33,696 nt of DNA from Selenomonadaceae bacterium (lineage in GTDB: Bacteria > Bacillota > Negativicutes > Selenomonadales > Selenomonadaceae). Under the pieces are notes generated by a model, which did not search any database, was not told the DNA's origin, and saw only the letters and a program-made list of their open reading frames with translations. How positions within the stretch are numbered: the first letter of the stretch is position 1; every line of letters begins with the position of its first letter. Position numbers and translations under genes: made by a program. Positions 19 through 18,990 of the stretch are shown piece by piece. The stretch lies in contig JAFSZS010000227.1 in NCBI GenBank assembly GCA_017455645.1, positions 1-33,696 of the forward strand. Reading direction: 5' to 3'.

Positions 19-2082
19 TTAAATATCAAAATTTTTATTTGCCATAATACCTCGCTTTTTATTTGGCATTGCACTTGATTTATTTGAAGATATAATTTTT
101 TCAGTGCGTTCAATCGTAATTACGGGTACAAGCCATTCTTCCAAAGTCGCCCCGCCGTGAATTTCATTGCCTGCCCCGCCTTGCTGAATAAATCTTGAAT
201 AATCCGCAAAAATTATTTTGTCATTCTGCTCAATAAAATTGGAAAATTTTTCTTTGTCGCCGGATAGAGAATTTGCAAATCTGCCGCCATAAAAAACTTC
301 GCGGGCTTTGCTTTCAAAATTTTTATCAAATTTTGTTTTTCTGACCAAAACTGCCAGTCTACTCGCTCCATGATCCGCACTGACAATTATTTTTTTGTAA
401 TTTTTTAACGTAGTTAAAATTTTTTCTTTCAACGCAGATAAAAAATTCAATTCCGCCAAAATATTTTCAGGATATTTTTTTGTTGAATGCTTAATTTTAT
501 CAAGGTCAAGAATTTCTGCGGCAATATTTTTATCATTCAAAAAATCTTTGTTATATTCGGTAATTGAAGGCAAATTACAATAACCGAATTGGTATTTGAT
601 TGTAAAATTTTTGAACTCCGGCGAGGAAAAAATTCTTGCCAAAAAATTTAAGTATTCGACTCCCAGCGCGTCCACAAAAAAAATTGCCGCGTCTTCAAAA
701 TATTCTTCTGCAACAAGCTGATTTCTGGACTTAAGCGAATAGATATTTTGGCTGTTGTTTTCGGCAATTTCATTCACCAAATTATAAAAATCCTCGCTCA
801 ATATATTCGTAACTTTCAACCAACGGTATTTGCGAAAGTAAGCTCTTTGTTCTGTAGAAAAAATTCCATTTGAATCCGACAAATAATTTGCCAAAGCAGG
901 GAAATTTTTTTGTAAAACTGCAACGACTTCATCATAATTTGTAAATTTAAATTTTCGTATTACTTCAAAGAATAAAATTTTTTCGTTTACAGAAGTATCG
1001 GTTAAAATTTTTAACGCCAACTTTTTATCTGCTTGACGAATTTTATCAACAAATTTTTCAGGGAGTGAAACTTGCAGACAAGATAAAATTTCGCGGCGTT
1101 CGTCATAAACTTTGGAAAAATTCTTGTTGCTGTCAAAAATTTGTATGTAAATCTGTTCAATCCAATTTTTGGGCGAATCAGATTTTTTTGCACAACTATC
1201 AGCATAAAAATTTTCATTCCCAATTTTACACCAGAGCCACAAAAGCCAACGTTGAAAATTTTCCTGCAAATGGAAATTACTAAACAAACTCGGCTTGAAA
1301 GAATCTGTATTCAGTTCATAACGAAAAGCTTTTTCAAGGTTGCCGGTTTTGGTAACAGATACAGCCAATTTTTCCCAATCTTCACGGCTTCCAAAATTTT
1401 TTTCCAATTCTACCGGCAAATTGTAATGATAACGCAACAAGCTGAAGGCATCGGAAATAACTTTAACATCGTCGAAAAATTTTTGATCTTGCAGATAAAT
1501 TGCGTTGTTTGTGTAGACGTGCAAAGACTCTTTCGGCTTTTCTTCCCAATACTTTAAATAATTTTTAAAGCCGTCAGCCCGCGTTCCTTGTAATTTTAAA
1601 TTCAAAGATTTTTGAATGATCGTCAGCGAATAATTGTTTTCTTCTGCCGTATCCAACAAAATTATGCAGTTTTTTTTTCGCACGTCATAAATTTCCAAAG
1701 ATTTAAGAACGCTTTTCAGGCGGTACATCAGAAAATAGATTCTGAAATTTGTTGGCTCTTGAAAAAATGAATTTAAAATTTTCTTAATTTCAGATTCAGC
1801 AATTTCAGGGCGCACGCGCAAAAATTCTGACAGCGGCAAAACGCAACAATTTTTAGTTTCATTTTTCAACGCGGTATAAAATCGCTTTAAATTTGGCATG
1901 GTATCTTCAGCCGAGCAAAATTCTGACAAAAAAATAAACTTCTCAGTCGCCAAAAAATTTTTCACTTCGTGCCACATTGAAATTGAATCCACGTTTATAA
2001 ATCTAACGGGGCTTAAAGTCTTTTGTTTTTTATCCTGCGTCAAATTTTTTTTCAGTTCCTCAAGATTTTTGAAGACAATCAT
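19..2082 (-). CDS. pglZ: PglZ-family protein of a BREX type 4-like system
   Basis: A 687-aa protein whose C-terminal half carries the alkaline-phosphatase-like PglZ fold. The first metal-site strand is FFVDALG (about 468-474), followed by SADHGAS (about 568-574) and the family ending IHGGATLEEWLVPV (about 641-654). The N-terminal half has no motif I recognise. PglZ is the shared core protein of BREX and Pgl phage-defence systems; its exact activity there is unsettled, though members of the fold hydrolyse phosphoester bonds. The ATG start has GAGGGCG five bases upstream, inside the end of the brxC-like gene, so the two are probably translated together. It is the last operon gene seen; only 18 bases remain before the window edge, so a following brxL would be outside the window. 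Confidence 0.85.
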   Translation of the reverse strand: MIVFKNLEELKKNLTQDKKQKTLSPVRFINVDSISMWHEVKNFLATEKFIFLSEFCSAEDTMPNLKRFYTALKNETKNCCVLPLSEFLRVRPEIAESEIKKILNSFFQEPTNFRIYFLMYRLKSVLKSLEIYDVRKKNCIILLDTAEENNYSLTIIQKSLNLKLQGTRADGFKNYLKYWEEKPKESLHVYTNNAIYLQDQKFFDDVKVISDAFSLLRYHYNLPVELEKNFGSREDWEKLAVSVTKTGNLEKAFRYELNTDSFKPSLFSNFHLQENFQRWLLWLWCKIGNENFYADSCAKKSDSPKNWIEQIYIQIFDSNKNFSKVYDERREILSCLQVSLPEKFVDKIRQADKKLALKILTDTSVNEKILFFEVIRKFKFTNYDEVVAVLQKNFPALANYLSDSNGIFSTEQRAYFRKYRWLKVTNILSEDFYNLVNEIAENNSQNIYSLKSRNQLVAEEYFEDAAIFFVDALGVEYLNFLARIFSSPEFKNFTIKYQFGYCNLPSITEYNKDFLNDKNIAAEILDLDKIKHSTKKYPENILAELNFLSALKEKILTTLKNYKKIIVSADHGASRLAVLVRKTKFDKNFESKAREVFYGGRFANSLSGDKEKFSNFIEQNDKIIFADYSRFIQQGGAGNEIHGGATLEEWLVPVITIERTEKIISSNKSSAMPNKKRGIMANKNFDI

Positions 2083-2092
2083 TTTTTCGCCC

Positions 2093-5000
2093 TCAAGAAT
2101 TCTTCAAGACTCTTATGCCCAGCAAAACATCTTTTTTTATAAGTTCTTCAAGATATTTTTGAGCTTGTTCTGCGGAAAGTTCATGGATTTTTTTCTGAAC
2201 TTGAGTAATAAAATATTTGTGATAGTTGTTTTGAGCGTAGGCTTCGATTTTATTTTTGCAATTATATTTTTCATCGTACCAATTATAAACATTGTCTCCG
2301 CTCTTTTCCTGCAGAATTTTTCGCAAATCATTAGCTTGCAAAACCGGTGAATATTCTCCGCCAAAAAAATTTACAAAAGCTTTTTCGCAAGAATTTTTAT
2401 CTTGCAGACATTTTAATTTATCGCTCTGGATAAAATTTAAAGCAGTTTCAATTTCATTTTCAGATAAATTTTGTGAATTTCTATTAAGCGCGGAAAAAAT
2501 ATTTTGTGCCTCTCGCAAACAATCTTGAAACATACAAAGTATCGGAATTTTATTTTGATTAGACCAATCTGCAGGCGATTTTGTGCCGGTAACTTCCTGC
2601 CACATTAGAAAAATTTTTTGAATTTTTTCGTTGCGTCGAATATTTTGTAAAAATTGTTTCACCTGTAAAATAAAATCGTCCTTAGTTTTGAAAAAATTTC
2701 CTGCAGGGGCATTTAAGAATAAATTTGAGACAGTTTTATCATCAAGGCTGCTGTCAACATATTTTCTGATTGCGGCGGCAAAAGTGGCAGATTGTTTTTC
2801 AAAAAAATCTTTGAAAGTATCGGCAGAAATTTTTATCTGAATTGCCATTTGTTCGGGATTTTTTAAGCTACTACTTTGTAATGCTTGAAAAACTTGGAAA
2901 AAATTTTTTAAATCGCTTTGAAATTCTTCGACAATCGCACGTGGAATTTTTATTCTGTTAAGCTTATCTCTTAAAGATTCACGGGCGTCGAAAATTTTTT
3001 TTTGCGGAGTTGCAAGGATAGAATTTATCGCCTCAATCAAAAGTAATTCTTCATAAAGTCTATCAATCTGCTTGTTAAGGTCGTCAACTTTCCAAAGGTA
3101 CGCCGAGTCGGCAGAAAGTTTTTCATTTAGTCGTGAAAGATATTCCGGTTCGGTTAATTTTAATCTGCCGAAAATTTGAATGAGTTCAGGTTTGTATTCT
3201 GCAATGTAATAATTCATTCCGGATTTAAAATTATTTGATTGCACAAGATTTTTCAATTCGCTTACAACAGCAAGATTTTTCTTATAAATCAAATAAATAT
3301 CTTCAGCAATTTTCGTTTTTTCACGCGCCGTGACAGTTCGTGGGTTAATAAATTCTTCCATCAAGTCTATAAAATGCAAAATTTCTTCTTTGTAATCACT
3401 GACGCTGTATTTTTCTTCAGCATAATATTTGAGCGACCAAACTGGATAATAATTTTGAGTAAGGCGCAAATTTACACTTTTGGCTATATCGTCAATCGAA
3501 CTTCTATTACTTTCAGGTATATTAAAAATTTCTCCGGTGACTTTGCAAAATAAAATGTGTTCAGGAGTTTGCTTAACAATAAATTGATCTGTTTGCAGAG
3601 TTTCTTTAATGGCACTTACAATCAAATTGCTGATTTTGTCCGCTGTCAAGCTGTAAGTATTATTATTCACGTCACGAATATAAAAATTGCTGTCCACGTA
3701 TTCTTTCAGCAAAATTGCCAAAAGATACGCCGCGCCAATCGAACGTATTAAACCTACAGGCGGCTTTTTCAGAGTCTGCCAGATTTCGGCAAAACGCACT
3801 GAATTATTTTTTTCAAAACCGTATCCAATAATTTCTTCAACGATTTTTTTCATTTTGGAAATTGTACTGGAAGGATTATTCAGCCAATAATTTTTATCAT
3901 TGCGCCCGTCAATTTCCTTGAAAGCATTTTCTATACCGATTAAATAGTTATAACTGCCGGGAATTTTTTCTGTGCCGAGCGCGTATTTTGCAACCTTATC
4001 TTGAAAGCCTTGGGGTGAAAAAAGCTTATCATTCATAGAAATTTCTTCAAGCCCGCAACCATAAAATTTTCTGTTCAGCTCTTCAAGTTGACGGACTAAA
4101 TTTATTGCACCCGAAAAGACGTTTGATTCAGTAGCCGAACTGTAAACGCGGTAAGTTGTAATATCAAGTTGCCTGTTCCATTCTTCCACCAAGTCATTTG
4201 CAGTTTTTCCGGCGAGCGTCATTTGTTCACGTTGGTTTGGAATTTCTCTAAAATAAAGTTCCTTCGCCTTGTTTTGAACAAATTTTTCGTAACGTTGCTT
4301 TGTAAAAGGCGTTCCCGAAAAATCTACAACAACGCAACGCGAAGGAAATTTTTCATAAATTTTTGCTATAGTTTGATTTATTTTGCCTTGCTCTTCTTCG
4401 TCTGCCGCAAACAAATAAAACGCCAAAATTTGATTATCTGCAAGGCTTAAATCTTCATGGCTTGCAGACAAATATTTTTTAGGCGAAATGAATTTTATTT
4501 TGTAGCGATATTTCAAGAAGTTTGAAGGATAAAAACTTTTGGCAACCTTTAAATTTTCGTCGGTAATGATTGTGTCAAAAGTGCGTTCGTGCTTAACTTT
4601 TTCAAGCAATTTTTCCATTCGTTCATTGTCAACTTGAGCGGTTGCCATAACATAATAAATATCGTCTGATTGTTGAATTGCCGTAACAATTCCCTTGCTT
4701 GCGAAAATATTTAAAATCTGTCGAACGTCATTTTCAAAACTCGTACCAACAAAACAAGCGCAAATATTTTTCAAAGACGCACGCAAAAGCGAAGTCGCGC
4801 CGCCTGATCTGCTGTAAACTGTACTTTGCAAGGCAAATAAAGTCAACGTAGCTTTTAAGACACTCCGCTGATTTTCATTTTCGCAAATTTCGGCAAAATT
4901 ATTGTAGTAGGCTATTGCCTCTTGAAAAGTTTTATCCAAGTCGGGATTATCTAAATGAAAGAAATAATCCCACAAAAAATTAACCGTCAAGTAATCGCCG

Positions 5001-6280
5001 CGCCAACCTTCAACGCCGTAATTATTTATAAACCATTTGAAATTTCTGTGTTCTTCGTCGTCTTCAGAATAATTGGCGCACAAAAATTGAAACATTGTAC
5101 GCTGATTGGAGCTGATTTGTTGCGAAATAAATTTTAACAAATACGCCGCGTAAGGATGAATCGGCAAAAGTTTTTTCATATCTGCAGGCTGAATTGTAGT
5201 ATCACGTTTCATTATAAAATCGGCGGCTTCGCGTTTGACAATTTCCCAAAGTTCCCTTGAAAAATGCTCCCAATCATTCTTCATATCAGGTTCAACGCCT
5301 ACAGCTTGCGCCATTAACTGAAACGCCGTACTTTCAGCCAAAGTTATAGTACAAAGTTTAAAACGCGCCTCAATAATTTTTCGTTGTACTGAATCTGTGA
5401 TAAGTTGGTTGGCGTCGCTGTGCGTAATTAGGAAAAAATAAAAGCTCAATTCGGCGGACGCCTGCGCGATTTCCTGCAAGCCGGTAATGTTGTTCAAATT
5501 ATTTTTAAAGTACTCGGTGAACTCGTCCCAAATAAAAAAAATTGCGTAAAGCTTATTTTTCTCGCGTACATCTTTAAGCCAATCGATAACGTCATTAATG
5601 GTCATTGCCCAATTATAGGATTCTTTTTCAGCAACGGCGGTAATTTGTTCCAGCAGGTTAATTTTTTCTTCATCGTCCAAAGTCTTCAAATCGTAAATAA
5701 CTTCTTCCGGCGAAGTGTATTCTGAAAAATTGCCGCGATGCTTTTTAAAAGCCGAACGAAAATTAAAAGTTGCCTCGTCATCTGTCAGCGTGTCAAAAAC
5801 TTTGTCCATAATGCTTGCACTGCCCATATATTTATAGCCTTTTTCACGCAAGGAACGTTTGACACTTTCAACAATTACATTAAAAAGTTTATTCTGCGAA
5901 GTTATACCGGCGGACGAACTTTGATGCACAACTAAAATATCGCCTTTGGAACGAACACCGACCAGCCGCGCCCACAAAGAATTTAATTGTTCATTGTGCT
6001 GAAAGTATTTTTCGACGTTTGAGAGGTCGTCTTCAAAAATATGTTTGATAACAAACGAGGCGAAAGTTTTTCCAGTGCCGTAACTGCCATACATCCAAAT
6101 AGGGCGATTTTTCATATTTGAAGATTTTTCCAAAGTTTCAATCGCCGATGTTAGAACTTTTTTAAAACTCTCGTGCGGATAAAATGACTTCCATTTATTG
6201 GGGATTGTTCTATCACTACTTGCAGAAAAAACCGGCACAAAATCTGATTCAAGCTGCAAAAATTCTTTGTAAAGTTTCAA
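2093..6280 (-). CDS. brxC: Large P-loop ATPase, BrxC/PglY-like
   Basis: A protein of about 1,395 aa. From the chosen start it has a Walker A motif GSYGTGKT (about 65-72) and a Walker B-like strand FFIWDE (about 248-253). The remainder is mostly helical with no motif I can name. The size, the single N-terminal ATPase and its place between a PAPS reductase gene and pglZ fit the BrxC/PglY ATPase of BREX type 4. The frame opens at a GTG (6289), but that GTG overlaps the only Shine-Dalgarno sequence. TTG at 6280 sits six bases after GAGGTG and gives MKLYKEFLQLE, so I prefer it. The stop is 10 bases before pglZ, and the start lies 15 bases after the brxP stop. The assignment rests on motifs and context, not alignment. 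Confidence 0.8.
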   Translation of the reverse strand: MKLYKEFLQLESDFVPVFSASSDRTIPNKWKSFYPHESFKKVLTSAIETLEKSSNMKNRPIWMYGSYGTGKTFASFVIKHIFEDDLSNVEKYFQHNEQLNSLWARLVGVRSKGDILVVHQSSSAGITSQNKLFNVIVESVKRSLREKGYKYMGSASIMDKVFDTLTDDEATFNFRSAFKKHRGNFSEYTSPEEVIYDLKTLDDEEKINLLEQITAVAEKESYNWAMTINDVIDWLKDVREKNKLYAIFFIWDEFTEYFKNNLNNITGLQEIAQASAELSFYFFLITHSDANQLITDSVQRKIIEARFKLCTITLAESTAFQLMAQAVGVEPDMKNDWEHFSRELWEIVKREAADFIMKRDTTIQPADMKKLLPIHPYAAYLLKFISQQISSNQRTMFQFLCANYSEDDEEHRNFKWFINNYGVEGWRGDYLTVNFLWDYFFHLDNPDLDKTFQEAIAYYNNFAEICENENQRSVLKATLTLFALQSTVYSRSGGATSLLRASLKNICACFVGTSFENDVRQILNIFASKGIVTAIQQSDDIYYVMATAQVDNERMEKLLEKVKHERTFDTIITDENLKVAKSFYPSNFLKYRYKIKFISPKKYLSASHEDLSLADNQILAFYLFAADEEEQGKINQTIAKIYEKFPSRCVVVDFSGTPFTKQRYEKFVQNKAKELYFREIPNQREQMTLAGKTANDLVEEWNRQLDITTYRVYSSATESNVFSGAINLVRQLEELNRKFYGCGLEEISMNDKLFSPQGFQDKVAKYALGTEKIPGSYNYLIGIENAFKEIDGRNDKNYWLNNPSSTISKMKKIVEEIIGYGFEKNNSVRFAEIWQTLKKPPVGLIRSIGAAYLLAILLKEYVDSNFYIRDVNNNTYSLTADKISNLIVSAIKETLQTDQFIVKQTPEHILFCKVTGEIFNIPESNRSSIDDIAKSVNLRLTQNYYPVWSLKYYAEEKYSVSDYKEEILHFIDLMEEFINPRTVTAREKTKIAEDIYLIYKKNLAVVSELKNLVQSNNFKSGMNYYIAEYKPELIQIFGRLKLTEPEYLSRLNEKLSADSAYLWKVDDLNKQIDRLYEELLLIEAINSILATPQKKIFDARESLRDKLNRIKIPRAIVEEFQSDLKNFFQVFQALQSSSLKNPEQMAIQIKISADTFKDFFEKQSATFAAAIRKYVDSSLDDKTVSNLFLNAPAGNFFKTKDDFILQVKQFLQNIRRNEKIQKIFLMWQEVTGTKSPADWSNQNKIPILCMFQDCLREAQNIFSALNRNSQNLSENEIETALNFIQSDKLKCLQDKNSCEKAFVNFFGGEYSPVLQANDLRKILQEKSGDNVYNWYDEKYNCKNKIEAYAQNNYHKYFITQVQKKIHELSAEQAQKYLEELIKKDVLLGIRVLKNS

Positions 6281-6295
6281 ATTGTCCACCTCGTA

Positions 6296-8659
6296 CTAAA
6301 AAAGCTCCACAATATCGCCGGAAATTTTTTCACGGTTCAAAAAAATATTTTCTTGAATACCCTTGTAAAAATCCACTTTTATAAAATCTGAATAATCATT
6401 CGCCAAGCCAACAAGCATTGGACGCAAAATTTTTTCTTCAATACCGAATAAAATTTTTGGACTCAACGCTTCGCGCTCTTCGTTATCTTCAAGTAAATCT
6501 GTTAAAGTAAAGCTGTAAAGCCCGTCCGCGTGTTCCGCAAATTGATAAAGGCTGTACAAAATTACCAACGGTTCAGGATTTTTCCACGCTGTCCGCGTAA
6601 TTGAAACTACTTGCCGACCTTTCAAGTTGCAAATTCCTTGTCCAATTTCTTCACCAATGGGCGAAGATTTAAACATATCTTTTAAAGATTTTACTCCATT
6701 AAGCCGAGTTCTTTCGCTAAGTGAATTTCCAAGCATATTCATTAAAAAATTACTATCACAATCAAAATTAAAAGCTGTCTTTCTGACAAACAAACTGACG
6801 AGCGGCGAATTATAAGCCATATTAACCCAAAAAATTCCCCACAATTTCAAGTTATCTGTACCGAGTTCAGAAATCTTTTCAAAATTACTTGACGGTTTTT
6901 TATTTTCGTCAATCAAACAAATTTCCCTGCCCCAATTCTTAAAACTCTCAAACATTTTGGAGCCCATTCTGCTATTTGGATCATTTTTTTTGGCATATTC
7001 CCAAAATTTTTCGGGATTTTCAAAATAAATTTTTATCCAATCAAGACGTAAGCCAAAAGTGTTATATCTGTCAATTCGTTTAATTTCCACGTCGTTATAA
7101 CCTCCAATAGCAGTTGAGCGAGCTATCCAACAACCTCTTTGCATTTCCAAACATTTATGACAATGCACACAATTTTTTATTGAAATGTCATTATCTGTAA
7201 TATTTAAAGCCCCGTTAGGACATTCTATCATACAAACGCGACAATTTTTACAATAAGCCGATTTATTTAAAACATTTCTAAACAGCGAAAAAAATTTTAT
7301 TGTTTCCTTAGTTTTAACAGGTTCGGAAAATGTAAAAACTTCTTCGCCTTCAGAATTTTCAACAGTAAAAATAAAAGATTCTGCGCCATACTGAATTAAA
7401 TATTTATTTTCCGCAATCTCAAAAAAATTGCCCAATGCAGGCAACCATTTTTTCCAAGAATAATTTGCATTTTTTAAGGTAAATTTTCGCTGTGAATTTT
7501 CATCGACAGCAATAACTTTATCTTCACCTTGCCTAAGATATTTTCCGCTACCTCTTATTTTCCAACCAAGCGAATTGAAATAATCTTTCCATTCGTCTTC
7601 ATTTGTAAAACCTTTATTTATTTGGCTTTTAATAATTGAAATGAACGGCGCAATTTCTTCATGGAAAATATGATTTTGTATGCAATCACTCCAAATTGAA
7701 GACATAGGGCATAATTTACAGCCAACTCTATGCAAGCCGATTCTGTAAGAATTATTCAGCGGCAAATTTTCAAAAAAATAATACAAAAATAATTCTGAGG
7801 TATTCCATTTTCTGATAGGATAAAAATTTATTTGTGCGTTATGCTTTACTCCTTCGGAAATTTCGCCATATGTTGAACGATTAGCACTTTCTAAATTGCG
7901 AATACCTAAAAAAGCCAACGCCTTAAAATTTTTTATATCTTGAATGGAACGTTTGCGGCGCGTAGCCAAAATTTCTTTTACCTTGAAAAGCGAAGGCGCG
8001 GACTTATGAACCGAACAACACCAGCGAATTTTTCGCGCAGGCGGTCCCATAAACTGCCAAGACTCCAGAGCCTCAAAAGGAGCTTTTGCCGTGTGCCAAT
8101 TTAATTTATTGTAGCGCAGTTTTGTTTCTTCAACAGTTTTGTAAGTGTCTTGCAATTCCATTGAAGTATCGCCGAAAATTACTTCAAAGGCGTCGTAAGG
8201 AAGGGCGCGTTGCACCAAATCAAGCATAACGAGAGAATCTTTGCCGCCGCTGAAGGCAACGTAAAAAATATCGACTTTGTTTTTGTACGCCTTGAAAGTT
8301 TTGTAAATATCTTTTAAAGTGCGCTGAATTAATCCGTTCATAAAACTTTCGTTCTTTGCAAGCATAGCTTTAATATCGACGGGCTTTAAGGATAAATTCG
8401 GCACAACATTTTTAAGCGTCGGTAATTCAAACAAATTGCCGCCTTGAGTTTCGGCTACAAGTTCTCCGCGATAAAAGTACTTGCGACCTTCAGCCCAACA
8501 AAGCGGCTCAATCGATTCTGGAAAATTCCAGCCAAAATTTTTATCAAGTTGCAAAAATTTCAATTCCTCAAAAAAAACCGGGCGAATTTCATTTTGTGAT
8601 TTATTTTCAGTAACAAGATTGTAGCCGCCGGTTTCTTTGTCCCATTCATAAGCGTACAC
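6296..8659 (-). CDS. brxP: PAPS reductase / iron-sulfur fusion protein, BrxP-like
   Basis: A 787-aa protein. An N-terminal segment is followed by a PP-loop nucleotide site SGGKDS (about 137-142) typical of the PAPS reductase/DndC superfamily. The WCC and GCKLCP cysteines (about 214-215 and 314-317) could hold an iron-sulfur cluster as in related thiolation enzymes. A ferredoxin-like double cysteine motif follows, CKNCRVCMIEC and CVHCHKC (about 470-503). The C-terminal 240 residues resemble DUF4007, a domain found beside phosphorothioation and BREX genes; this is recalled, not computed. BrxP is the signature protein of type 4 BREX. The frame is open from a TTG at 8677, but GTG at 8659 has AGAGGA seven bases upstream and gives VYAYEWDKETGG, the usual beginning of this family. 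Sulfur chemistry on DNA or nucleotides is an inference. Confidence 0.85.
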   Translation of the reverse strand: MYAYEWDKETGGYNLVTENKSQNEIRPVFFEELKFLQLDKNFGWNFPESIEPLCWAEGRKYFYRGELVAETQGGNLFELPTLKNVVPNLSLKPVDIKAMLAKNESFMNGLIQRTLKDIYKTFKAYKNKVDIFYVAFSGGKDSLVMLDLVQRALPYDAFEVIFGDTSMELQDTYKTVEETKLRYNKLNWHTAKAPFEALESWQFMGPPARKIRWCCSVHKSAPSLFKVKEILATRRKRSIQDIKNFKALAFLGIRNLESANRSTYGEISEGVKHNAQINFYPIRKWNTSELFLYYFFENLPLNNSYRIGLHRVGCKLCPMSSIWSDCIQNHIFHEEIAPFISIIKSQINKGFTNEDEWKDYFNSLGWKIRGSGKYLRQGEDKVIAVDENSQRKFTLKNANYSWKKWLPALGNFFEIAENKYLIQYGAESFIFTVENSEGEEVFTFSEPVKTKETIKFFSLFRNVLNKSAYCKNCRVCMIECPNGALNITDNDISIKNCVHCHKCLEMQRGCWIARSTAIGGYNDVEIKRIDRYNTFGLRLDWIKIYFENPEKFWEYAKKNDPNSRMGSKMFESFKNWGREICLIDENKKPSSNFEKISELGTDNLKLWGIFWVNMAYNSPLVSLFVRKTAFNFDCDSNFLMNMLGNSLSERTRLNGVKSLKDMFKSSPIGEEIGQGICNLKGRQVVSITRTAWKNPEPLVILYSLYQFAEHADGLYSFTLTDLLEDNEEREALSPKILFGIEEKILRPMLVGLANDYSDFIKVDFYKGIQENIFLNREKISGDIVELF

Positions 8660-8681
8660 ACAAAAAAATCCTCTCAAAAAT

Positions 8682-11219
8682 TTATTTCAAGTGAATTTTA
8701 TCATATTCGTCAATAGCTTTGGGCAATTTTTTATGTGCCAATCCCTTATCCTTAAGCCAATTTAAAATTTCGTCTTTATTTTGAAATGGATCGCGCTCCT
8801 GTTCTTCAATCAAAATTTTAAGGCAAAAAGAATTAAAATCATCTTCAGCAAAATTTTCTGAAACAAAAACGGCTGTAGAAAATTCGCCTGCAGTTGAAAA
8901 GGAGTGTAAAATTTTAAAATTATCTGCTGAAAGTTTAACAATACTTTCAAGCAAAAAACTATTCCACGAAACCTCAAGGCGCGGCAACCATTCAAAATCA
9001 GGAAAAGTTTTTGCAGACTGCCAGCCGCCGTTGCGTTCCATTGCCAATTTTACATTTTCAACAACCGCCTCAATAATTTCATCAGTAATACCGATTGATT
9101 CGGGTCGACGCAAATAAAATTCATCAACGCGAATAAATTCTGGATTCAAATTTTCAATTAAGGTACTTTTTGAAAGATATTTTATTCCCTGCTCTTCACA
9201 CAAATTTAAAATATCTTCAATTTCAACTTCAGCCCTGTCTTCAATGTATTGCAACAAAATTTTTTTATTGGTAATGCCGGCTATATTTGTAGTCGAAATG
9301 TACGGACGCGAAAAATTGAATTTTTTGCCAAACATATATTTTAAAATTCCAAAAAGCTTTTCGGCATCTTCAATTTTATTTCTGTATAAAAAATCTTGAA
9401 AACGCTCCCAAAACAAATTGTACAAATAACGCGAACTTGCAGGCTTATTTTCGCAGATATTTTGTAAAAATTTTTCAATTTCAGCTGATTCATCTTCTTG
9501 CAAGTTAAGCCGCGTTGAGTGCAAATATTTTCCTTTGCCAATGCAGATAATTTCGGGACAACGTTGCAACAACATTCCAATATTGTGAACTTGAAAAGAA
9601 ATAAATTCAGCCTTAATTTCTTGCGTTGAAACTTCGCCGTTTTTGGCAACAAAATTATTGAATTCCGCTGCCAAATTTAAATCTGCATTTTTCGTAAGAC
9701 AATCTCTGGAAAGAGTGTAAGGGGAACCGCAATATTTTATTGCGCCCTGCAAAATATATTGATTGGTAATTTGCGTGCCGACGAAATTTTCTTTCAGTGC
9801 AGTAAAAATTTCCTTGTAAGGCAAAACTGTACGCTCGGATTTTTCGATATAGTCATTTATCAATAAAATAATTTTTTGCGGAACGTGCAAAAAGTCGGGA
9901 TGCATATATTTTCCGCGACCGCACAACACACCTATTCTGCTTAATATTGCGTCTAAAGCACGTTGCGAAATTGCGTTCTCATAACCAAAAATTTCACGCA
10001 AATAGCGAACAAATCTGTTGTAATGCGTTTCGTCAGCAATTTTGTAGCCGCTCTGAAATATTTCTCTTAAAATGTAACCGCATTGAAATCTCAAAGTTAA
10101 AAATCCTCTGTAAAAAAATTTCCCGCTGTGTTTGTAAATCTGTAAAATTTTTAGTCTCAATAATTCTTCAGAGCAATTTTTCTCTTTAACAATTTGGTTA
10201 ATTTCTTCTTGTAATTCAGATTCACTCAAAATTTTTGGCAAACTATCAATCAATTTATCATAATCAATCATTTTTTTGTTTGCTGTAAAAATAATCGTAT
10301 TTGTTGCCGCGTCAAAACAAAAAACTTTTTTATCTGAAGCAATCTTAGAAATGAAAAACCATAGGGTTTTTGTCGAATCTTCGCCTATAAAATTTTTTAA
10401 ATCTTCAAATGTGACAAAATTTTTTTCGCCAAGCAGTTCACAAACAGAATCAAAAAATTTTTTTAATTTGAGCCCGCTATATTGTGAAAAATTTTTAATG
10501 GCACTATTTTCAATTTGGCGAACTCTTTCACGTGTAATGTTAAGCTCTTTTCCAATTTCTTTCAAAGTTTTACCTACTACGCGCCCGGCAATAATGGCAA
10601 TTTGCTTTTTATTTTTCAAGACAGAACATACCATTTCTTCAGCAAAATTTTTCAAACTGTCTTTATCAAGCAATTCAGGAGTTTCAAAATTTTTTTTGGA
10701 CTCTTCAGGCGTAGTACGAGCAACGCACATAGATTTTAAAAAAATTTTTTCAAGAACTTTAATTACATTGTCAATAGACCCCCTGCCAAAATTTTTTAAT
10801 GCTGAAAGTTCAGGTACAGAATAATTAAGCAATTCACCCAATGTAAAACAATTTTCTCTTTTCAGCAAATTTTGAACGCGGTTATTAAAAGGTAATTCCG
10901 TTACCAAAATATTTTTGTAAGGCTCAAGAGCAACGATATTAAAAATTTCCCGCAAAGTTTGAATTGTTTTGCTATCAGTCTTTTCAGCAAATAAATCAAA
11001 TTCAGATTCATCGAACAAATTTATTTCAGCTGACTTAGAAGCTACAATTTTTTTTATATTTTCAATTTCTTCGCGAGAAGCAAAATATTTTGCACGATAA
11101 GCAATAAAATCCGCCTCGCTTAATTCATCGACAAAAATTTTTCCGGCGTCAGTACAATACTCCAGAAAAGTTTGATATTTGTCTTTAAATTTTGTTGTGA
11201 TTAAAATCCTTTTACTCAT
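8682..11219 (-). CDS. 845-aa protein with RNAP alpha-CTD-like and sigma region 4-like domains
   Basis: First gene of the BREX-like operon, with a good AGAAGGGA site six bases before its ATG. Residues about 103-160 look like the helix-hairpin-helix C-terminal domain of RNA polymerase alpha (TLGELLNYSVPELSALKNFG). Residues about 204-245 look like a sigma-70 region 4 helix-turn-helix (TLKEIGKELNITRERVRQIE). Further on, two segments end in the same pattern, GRGKYMH (434-440) and GKGKYLH (561-567), suggesting repeated winged-helix units. No catalytic motif is visible. It probably binds DNA and could regulate the operon or recognise DNA for the system. It is much longer than any sigma factor or alpha subunit, so it is not a normal transcription subunit. 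The family name is unknown to me. Confidence 0.75.
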   Translation of the reverse strand: MSKRILITTKFKDKYQTFLEYCTDAGKIFVDELSEADFIAYRAKYFASREEIENIKKIVASKSAEINLFDESEFDLFAEKTDSKTIQTLREIFNIVALEPYKNILVTELPFNNRVQNLLKRENCFTLGELLNYSVPELSALKNFGRGSIDNVIKVLEKIFLKSMCVARTTPEESKKNFETPELLDKDSLKNFAEEMVCSVLKNKKQIAIIAGRVVGKTLKEIGKELNITRERVRQIENSAIKNFSQYSGLKLKKFFDSVCELLGEKNFVTFEDLKNFIGEDSTKTLWFFISKIASDKKVFCFDAATNTIIFTANKKMIDYDKLIDSLPKILSESELQEEINQIVKEKNCSEELLRLKILQIYKHSGKFFYRGFLTLRFQCGYILREIFQSGYKIADETHYNRFVRYLREIFGYENAISQRALDAILSRIGVLCGRGKYMHPDFLHVPQKIILLINDYIEKSERTVLPYKEIFTALKENFVGTQITNQYILQGAIKYCGSPYTLSRDCLTKNADLNLAAEFNNFVAKNGEVSTQEIKAEFISFQVHNIGMLLQRCPEIICIGKGKYLHSTRLNLQEDESAEIEKFLQNICENKPASSRYLYNLFWERFQDFLYRNKIEDAEKLFGILKYMFGKKFNFSRPYISTTNIAGITNKKILLQYIEDRAEVEIEDILNLCEEQGIKYLSKSTLIENLNPEFIRVDEFYLRRPESIGITDEIIEAVVENVKLAMERNGGWQSAKTFPDFEWLPRLEVSWNSFLLESIVKLSADNFKILHSFSTAGEFSTAVFVSENFAEDDFNSFCLKILIEEQERDPFQNKDEILNWLKDKGLAHKKLPKAIDEYDKIHLK

Positions 11220-11335: not shown

Positions 11336-11372
11336 AAAAAGATTATCGACTTTTTATCGACAATCTTTTTAA
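11336..11372 (-). terminator. Intrinsic terminator after the small membrane protein gene
   Basis: Read on the minus strand, GAUUGUCGA and UCGAUAAUC pair over nine positions, one of them G-U. The loop is UAAAAAG, and a run of U follows. On the plus strand the same position is an A-C mismatch, so the minus strand is favoured. It closes the transcript of the 11382-11858 gene and separates it from the BREX-like operon downstream. Confidence 0.75.
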
Positions 11373-17310: not shown

Positions 17311-18990
17311 CTATAACGCTTGATTGATTTTTGCGGCAATTAATTTTTTGCGTTCAGTTAGAAATTTTTTGAAATTGCTTATTATCCAAGTGTTGCTGTC
17401 TTCCGGTATCAAGTGCAATGAAAGATATTCTTGCTGATTTTCTACTTGAGGCAACCATTTATTTAAAGTTTTGTCATTTTTTTTACTGTTATCTGAAGAA
17501 CTTAGTCGCTCCAAATTTGCAATGCTGTTAATTTCTTCGATTGTAAATTTGCCCATTTCTTTTAATTTTGCCTTAGGTTGAATGTGGTCTGCAACCCTGC
17601 GCGAAGAAAGGTTTCCGTCATACATAAGATAAAGCATATATTCTTGGTCGGGGTCAAAATCGTCAAGGTTTTTTTCTTTGACAGTGGAATAAAATTTGTG
17701 AAGATTTTTTATGCAAACGTTAAAAAGCTCCTCTGCCGGAAAAACTTTGCCCTGAAATTTTTCTAATTCTTTGTGCAGCTCTTTTATACCTTTTTCAGAA
17801 GGAGTCCAGCCGCAACCGCGCCGCCAAATTCCATTCAGCCACGAAAGTTTCAACCATTTTTTCATATTGGAAAAATTTTCAGCGGATTTTTCGACAACGT
17901 CCAGCGGATGAATACTGTTGCGCTCCGAAAAATAAAAAATATGGTACGCCAAAAGATACAGCGAAATTGGCGAACGATTTTTATTGCTTGCAAACCAATT
18001 ATAATCGCCGCTTTTTTGCAAAAAAATTCTCAGTGCCTGCAAAGTTTGTTTTATACGGTCGGAATTTTTTATTGCAAAATTAGATTCGTCGCCGCTTAAA
18101 TTTGCAATATCTTTTAAAGGTCTGCCTGTAAGTGTCAATAAGATTTTTACAATTTTATCGCCGTCCAAATTAATATCTTTGTTTTCTTCAACAATATCAT
18201 CAAGAAAATTTTCCATTCGATAATCGAAGCCTTTTAATTTTGAAGCAACAAGGTCAAGTGTAGAAAGTCTCATCCCTTCACTATTGAGTCGCCGGAAAAG
18301 TTCAACCATCCATTGGCGATTTTCAGTAACATCTTTTGAAGTGTCAAATTTTACTTTTGAAATTCCAATGGTTTTATCGTTAAAAATTCTTTGATAAAAA
18401 TGTTGAATATTACGTTCAACACGTCGAGTAAGTTTAATTTTTTCAGTATCTTTAATGTCAAATTCAGCGTTTATTTTGTCTGCAACTTTGCCGCTGTCGT
18501 TTGTTTCGGACAAAAAAACATATAATTTAGCTACGCTGTACCAAAAATTTTCTGAAGGTACAAAAGATTTTTCCTTTCCGGGCTTCAAAAATTTGAATTC
18601 ATATTCATTTGATTCAAAATCGCTGAAAAGGTCAAAATATAAATTTTTGCCTTCCCAAGTGCCGTAAATCCCTATGTAAAAAGTTTGAAGGCGTTGTTGT
18701 CCGTCGATAACAAAAAACTGTTTGTGCTGTAATTGTTGAACTTCTTCAGAATTTTGCGGGGTGCCATCATTTGAAAATTTACGGAATGCAAAAAGCGGCT
18801 CTGCATGTTTGTCTTCTTCCAAGCCAATTATTGCACCAAAAGAATATCCTTTAAATAAGCTGTTAAAAAGTAGCTCCATTTTTTCGTCGTCCCAAACAAA
18901 TCTGCGTTGAATTACCGGCAATACAAATAAGTTTTCGTCGTGAATCAATGTAACTACTTCTTTGACGGTTTTATTTTCCCAATCTTCCAT
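17311..18990 (-). CDS. DUF262/HNH protein, GmrSD-like probable defence nuclease
   Basis: A 559-aa protein. The N-terminal DUF262 domain has VIQRRFVW (about 26-33) and the ParB-like signature VIDGQQRLQT (about 94-103). The C-terminus has an HNH pattern: ADHIQPKAKL (about 467-476), then IANLERLSSSDNSKK (about 490-504). This is the single-chain layout of GmrSD/BrxU-type modification-dependent enzymes, known to restrict phage DNA with modified bases. The longer middle has no named motif. AGGAGG precedes the ATG at good spacing. It is a single-gene transcript between unrelated housekeeping operons, which suggests acquisition. Some DUF262 proteins have other roles, so restriction is an inference. 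Confidence 0.8.
   Translation of the reverse strand: MEDWENKTVKEVVTLIHDENLFVLPVIQRRFVWDDEKMELLFNSLFKGYSFGAIIGLEEDKHAEPLFAFRKFSNDGTPQNSEEVQQLQHKQFFVIDGQQRLQTFYIGIYGTWEGKNLYFDLFSDFESNEYEFKFLKPGKEKSFVPSENFWYSVAKLYVFLSETNDSGKVADKINAEFDIKDTEKIKLTRRVERNIQHFYQRIFNDKTIGISKVKFDTSKDVTENRQWMVELFRRLNSEGMRLSTLDLVASKLKGFDYRMENFLDDIVEENKDINLDGDKIVKILLTLTGRPLKDIANLSGDESNFAIKNSDRIKQTLQALRIFLQKSGDYNWFASNKNRSPISLYLLAYHIFYFSERNSIHPLDVVEKSAENFSNMKKWLKLSWLNGIWRRGCGWTPSEKGIKELHKELEKFQGKVFPAEELFNVCIKNLHKFYSTVKEKNLDDFDPDQEYMLYLMYDGNLSSRRVADHIQPKAKLKEMGKFTIEEINSIANLERLSSSDNSKKNDKTLNKWLPQVENQQEYLSLHLIPEDSNTWIISNFKKFLTERKKLIAAKINQAL

Follow-up and report, generated by a model that had tools for sequence, protein, structure and literature searches.

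An 845-amino-acid (aa) gene precedes brxP in a type 4 (phosphorothioate) bacteriophage exclusion (BREX) operon on contig JAFSZS010000227.1 of a Selenomonadaceae bacterium (assembly GCA_017455645.1, positions 1 to 33,696; this whole 33,696-nucleotide stretch is called the window). The gene, referred to here as the leader, is a component that is conserved and co-inherited, and its sequence carries signatures of DNA binding. It appears to belong to a known defence system in which it has been overlooked, and not to be a stray regulator. We give a probability of about 0.5 to the reading that it encodes the DNA-reading adaptor subunit of the operon, a component not listed for the system. Its constant part, a C-terminal array of winged helix-turn-helix (wHTH)-like units, would act with BrxP and BrxC on DNA, probably by direct contact, while the N-terminus would serve as an exchangeable DNA-recognition head. 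The head found here would represent the upstream-promoter half of RNA polymerase, with the C-terminal domain of the alpha subunit (alpha-CTD) for UP-element-like DNA and sigma region 4 (sigma4) for −35-like DNA, and would steer the complex, on host or phage DNA, towards sites resembling promoters. Three points favour the adaptor: the core remains linked to BrxP while the heads vary, two phosphorothioate-linked operon types have the leader in common, and the DNA readers proposed for related systems are multi-wHTH proteins. The available text of PMC10853773 presents triple-wHTH SspB/DndG and wHTH sulfur-binding domains as readers of DNA or of sulfur; there and in the main text of PMC12839542, the type 4 analogue of BrxA is counted among the proposed multi-wHTH readers.

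Linkage of the leader to brxP

Type 4 BREX loci were located via brxP or type 4 pglZ, independently of the leader, mainly in Bacillota with a few in Chloroflexota and Spirochaetota. The resulting number, 51, is a tally from tables in which cases that are partial, decayed or cut by a contig end were counted too (G017, G032:C94 and G015, with G825 entered as none), and many of the sampled genomes are incomplete metagenome assemblies. By profile comparison, 39 of the 51 loci have a homologue of the leader core immediately 5′ of brxP and in the same orientation. The distance from leader end to brxP is mostly −32 to +94 bp, with several overlaps of 4–8 nt. The other 12 loci have a different gene that shares only the SAM-like front (two loci, L103 and L107), a complete sigma-70 factor (two) or nothing recognisable (eight). 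When 398 genomes of the phylum were searched with a wider-family profile, eight gave strong matches, seven of which adjoin brxP, and one lies on a contig ending 175 bp past the gene.

Core distances track BrxP distances closely across the 39 loci (Mantel r = 0.93, 0/2000 permutations), and the correlation is also seen inside three groups (r = 0.94, 0.61 and 0.60). The core diverges faster than BrxP, with mean identities of 54% versus 73% in one group and 39% versus 60% in another. Purifying selection acts on the leader: the ratio of nonsynonymous to synonymous substitution rates (dN/dS) was ~0.2 to 0.3 in every pair compared, those with free-standing copies or with a copy beside a decayed operon among them. 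A conserved, fast-evolving, multi-domain gene with predicted DNA binding in this place is a direct candidate for setting the DNA targets of type 4 BREX.

The type 4 components named in a 2026 survey (PMC12839542) are BrxP/3′-phosphoadenosine-5′-phosphosulfate (PAPS) reductase, BrxC, DUF4007, PglZ, BrxL and cysteine desulfurase. Operon partners and order (BrxP, BrxC, PglZ, BrxL, DUF4007) are alike in the loci described here, and nothing like the leader is among the components in the main text of the survey, although priority is uncertain. The first-pass annotation had stated that such a protein is not part of core type 4 BREX. This agrees with the published list, but the list itself looks incomplete because a core homologue precedes brxP in most of the independently found loci; the conservation beside brxP that the same annotation had proposed to check holds for the core. 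Type 4 BREX has been described with 4–6 components, and tests expressing brxPCZL alone may omit the leader.

The operon in the window comprises the following features:

8682..11219, minus strand: leader gene, 845 aa (ATG start, open frame, no internal stop)
6296..8677, minus strand: brxP, PAPS-reductase type (PADLOC BrxP 6e-232; Pfam PAPS_reduct 7.5e-23)
2093..6289, minus strand: brxC (PADLOC BrxC 7e-112)
19..2082, minus strand: pglZ, type 4 (NCBIfam BREX_PglZ_4 1.3e-116, above cut-off)
11336..11370, minus strand: stem then U-run, probable terminator (RNA fold −16.8 kcal/mol, z = −3.6)

The order on the minus strand is leader, brxP, brxC, pglZ, with 4 bp between leader and brxP, and the PAPS-reductase domain of BrxP, BrxC and the type 4 PglZ are all features of type 4 BREX. 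The contig stops just past pglZ and brxL is not assembled there; in relatives brxL comes next, and the sole BrxL of this genome is located at C46, in a second type 4 BREX operon. Because the strong stem and U-run lie upstream of the leader, between it and a 158-aa gene, the leader appears to be the first gene of its own unit, as had been proposed from the sequence. Two further genes were observed next to leaders elsewhere. Two type 4 BREX loci have a 1083-aa gene 5′ of the leader (L119:620-3871 and L122:9340-12591), and a 238-aa protein with an HNH-like cysteine/histidine pattern is encoded between leader and brxP at L093:6162-6878, its front resembling the module repeated at the front of L099 and L110, two other leaders.

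A conserved core behind changing fronts

The leader protein is divided as follows:

10746..10919, minus strand: RNA polymerase alpha-CTD-like domain, residues 101-158 (Pfam PF03118, RNA_pol_A_CTD, 1e-10)
10494..10574, minus strand: sigma-70 region 4 helix-turn-helix (HTH), residues 216-242 (Pfam PF04545, Sigma70_r4, 9.2e-9)
8706..10073, minus strand: C-terminal core, ~residues 383-838, wHTH-like array common to type 4 BREX leaders (hhalign between leader groups, E 3e-11 to 2e-27 against the group of this protein)
9684..10073, minus strand: duplication copy 1, residues 383-512, contains GRGKYMH (hhalign 97.3% versus copy 2)
9276..9683, minus strand: duplication copy 2, residues 513-648, contains GKGKYLH (hhalign versus copy 1)

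Most leader groups match the group of the 845-aa protein with hhalign E-values of 3e-11 to 1e-94 (1.4e-9 for the partial L117), and other groups match one another with E-values up to 3e-60; the alignments mostly cover ~410–450 C-terminal columns. The fronts vary. Some leaders carry one or two alpha-CTDs plus sigma4, others sigma4 alone, a Phage_int_SAM-like domain, other repeated modules or almost no front at all. The diverged second type 4 BREX of the same genome (G000:C46, L102:1505-12811) has a core-only leader of ~460 aa together with brxL. The alpha-CTD and sigma4 were rejected as the essential part, since BREX-linked relatives without them retain the core. Since sigma4 is present on L148, which belongs to another core group, and on the leaders of a second operon type described below, its history may be one of ancestral presence and frequent loss and not of new gain.

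Both front matches exceed the Pfam gathering scores, in line with the alpha-CTD and sigma region 4 recognised by the first-pass annotation. Equivalents of the UP-element contacts (alpha R265, N268, G296, S299) and of the −35 contacts (sigma70 R584, E585, R588, Q589; both in E. coli numbering) are kept in the leader and most relatives, and the recognition helix TRERVRQIE of sigma4 is kept as well. With these contact residues intact, the version of the leader found here may read UP/−35-like DNA. Sigma-70 region 2, responsible for core RNA polymerase binding and −10 recognition, was not found in the leader: Pfam shows region 4 only, and the NCBIfam sigma-factor matches fall on the C-terminal ends of the models.

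Within the core, a block of ~130 residues is duplicated. Residues 383-512 and 513-648 matched in profile–profile comparison with a probability of 97.3% and a score of 67.9, whereas 60 column shuffles scored 12.6 ± 2.7 (maximum 22.6) with probabilities of at most 8%. The GxGKYxH motifs occupy the equivalent point in both copies and close the first unit of each, in line with the units ending in G(R/K)GKY(M/L)H that had been noticed earlier. Some 7–9 wHTH-like units (helix-helix-helix-hairpin) can be drawn by eye in residues 250-838, with statistical support for the duplication only; the repeats look like winged helices and would probably fold as such. Residues 290-845 have no significant match in Pfam, NCBIfam or PADLOC, none of which holds a model for the core, and comparison with PDB sequences gave no meaningful match. 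BrxP, BrxC and PglZ were tried as homologues of the core and rejected, with no match in hhalign profile comparison.

Relatives in a second operon type and as free-standing copies

Leader relatives also head operons composed of a helicase, an ABC-ATPase and a small gene (L150:5532-9002, L151:6041-8917, L152:4491-8453 and L155:2744-5986). In three distant Bacillota (L150, L151 and L152) the leader is followed by an HKD-motif/XPB-like helicase of 677–715 aa, an ABC-ATPase of 675–684 aa with Rad50-like matches and a CxC motif, and a gene of ~150–180 aa. A related operon lies on an L. plantarum plasmid (RefSeq), where a 'sigma factor-like helix-turn-helix DNA-binding protein' overlaps the helicase by 4 nt and a 56-aa gene, an ATPase and a 154-aa gene follow. 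It differs in having a shorter helicase with no HKD motif and an ATPase with no plain CxC match, and its leader, taken by itself, gives a weaker match to the family (1.3e-16). A profile of the L150–L152 and L. plantarum leaders aligned with the profile of the 845-aa protein across sigma4 and the core (hhalign 100%, 1.4e-45). The arrangement fits that of the CxC ABC-ATPase-DndE (PbeABCD) systems, treated as Dnd relatives in the available text of PMC10853773, and the small gene is a putative DndE; no leader is described for these systems in that text. Through the common leader, two phosphorothioate-associated operon types are linked in sequence, and the leader may have a part in placing or reading phosphorothioates.

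Close relatives present a more mixed picture. The gene was found in 16 genomes (this one and 15 of the same genus), mostly immediately before brxP; the BREX genes are decaying in 4–5 of the brxP-adjacent cases, and five loci have the leader elsewhere. Homologues lying mostly away from BREX genes had been named by the first-pass annotation as a sign against the link. A scan of the whole collection with the C-terminal part yielded 25 loci, ~13 BREX-linked, 10 not and two on contigs too short to decide, so that the result is divided for close relatives; the link between core and brxP holds generally. The 25 loci include those of a Clostridia bacterium, of Sporomusa acidovorans and of Flexilinea flocculi (Chloroflexota), all three in the order leader, brxP, brxC, pglZ, with a 249-aa gene separating leader and brxP in the Clostridia locus. 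Treponema, several rumen species and other organisms have copies with no BREX genes nearby; of the rumen copies, one adjoins a type IIG enzyme and two a ResIII helicase. BREX remnants were sought beside free-standing copies (L033, L039, L041, L042, L044, L063, L064, L069-L073) and none were found. No leader homologues were detected in plasmids and phages (query P0001) or in viral contigs. In two genomes with the same flanks (L041:9695-13163 and L042:4324-7785), a leader relative with a degenerate sigma4 stands beside a 504-aa ResIII helicase, possibly as a two-gene system.

Competing explanations and known systems

Several observations weigh against an adaptor. In two genomes the gene 27–28 bp before brxP encodes a sigma-70 factor that is complete from region 1.1 to region 4 (L098:9627-11108 and L108:5978-7423). 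Free-standing copies exist without BREX (L033, L039, L041, L042, L044, L069 and L070). The single archaeal plasmid locus of the sample, like the eight loci with nothing recognisable before brxP, has no leader, and the leader is therefore not strictly essential to all type 4 BREX. Finally, an alpha-CTD with sigma4 is equally expected in a transcription regulator, which the first position also suits. A dedicated operon regulator, functionally BrxR-like, would bind its own promoter region through alpha-CTD and sigma4 and repress or activate brxPCZL. We keep this, the main rival of the adaptor, as a serious though not a likely explanation because of the gene position behind a probable terminator, the sigma-70 factors in the leader place and the precedent of BrxR (PMC9122589, PMC9122601); the intact contact residues, a short sigma4-like HTH open reading frame in L094 and the copies far from BREX also agree with it. 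On the other hand, core-only and SAM-headed leaders hold the same place without RNA-polymerase parts, and a protein of 600–1100 aa that carries a long array would be large if it only regulated an operon. Promoter-like sites in the leader upstream region were not above chance in a scan, and no shared operator was seen in the upstream regions, which were compared by eye only. Moreover, the leader family heads the second operon type with start–stop overlap. The first-pass annotation had offered an activator or a DNA-recognition part. DNA recognition is favoured by the RNA-polymerase modules being missing or replaced in many BREX-linked relatives, by the co-divergence with BrxP and by the second operon type, and the activator is less favoured.

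An improbable explanation is that the wHTH-like array is itself the sensor, of phosphorothioate status or of phage DNA, and that it gates PglZ/BrxL, with the alpha-CTD/sigma4 head as an accessory. Linkage to two phosphorothioate-associated operon types, the wHTH sulfur-binding domains described in the available text of PMC10853773 and the faster evolution of the core relative to BrxP would suit such a reader, but the array has no sequence match to PDB entries, and copies occur in genomes without type 4 pglZ, such as Treponema. That the leader is an unrelated passenger standing before brxP by chance is very hard to credit. Its free-standing relatives, and the locus L035:8688-14451, where an intact leader under purifying selection stands beside BREX genes reduced to fragments, would allow it; the recurrence of the linkage in three phyla and the strength of the co-divergence speak against it. 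The adaptor reading can be extended, in a form we consider rather unlikely, to a single leader family acting as the target-choosing subunit of both type 4 BREX and CxC-DndE/Pbe, with the promoter-reading parts found here directing modification or restriction to promoters. If this is true, the defence would read signals that a phage must keep for its own transcription.

Among known proteins, PglW of type 2 BREX has an alpha-CTD-like domain followed by several wHTHs, according to the main text of PMC12839542. The order is alike in the leader, and residues 105-265 give a weak colinear match to positions 806-970 of the PADLOC PglW model. Of 24 leaders, 8 are matched by this model (best 4.1e-6), and in the 845-aa protein the match covers alpha-CTD and HTH; no NERD nuclease or kinase (Pfam scan) and no iSTAND were detected. 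Across 149 genomes the PADLOC PglW model gave mostly partial matches, and the two longest read as NERD-kinase-NTPase proteins without homology to the leader. BrxR, the WYL regulator of type 1 BREX, is likewise a DNA-binding protein encoded by the first gene, but the leader has no WYL match in Pfam and belongs to a different family by sequence. MzaA of the MZA system has sigma4 in common with the leader; its PADLOC match covers only residues 212-252, and its NCBIfam match (169-258) is far below cut-off. In 2012, Aravind and Iyer reportedly described bacterial HARE-HTH proteins in which winged helices are joined to features of both alpha and sigma of RNA polymerase. The combination of alpha-CTD, sigma4 and winged-helix-like parts in one protein is alike, but no HARE-HTH was found in the leader: PF05066 gave no Pfam match up to E = 1, and the profile of unit 513-574 reached 1.2% against the HARE region of L103, an alternative leader that does carry HARE-HTH. 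Elsewhere in the window, a GmrSD_N/DUF262-type restriction gene is located at 17311-18990 (PADLOC HEC-05 7e-57), flanked by tsaE and transketolase genes.
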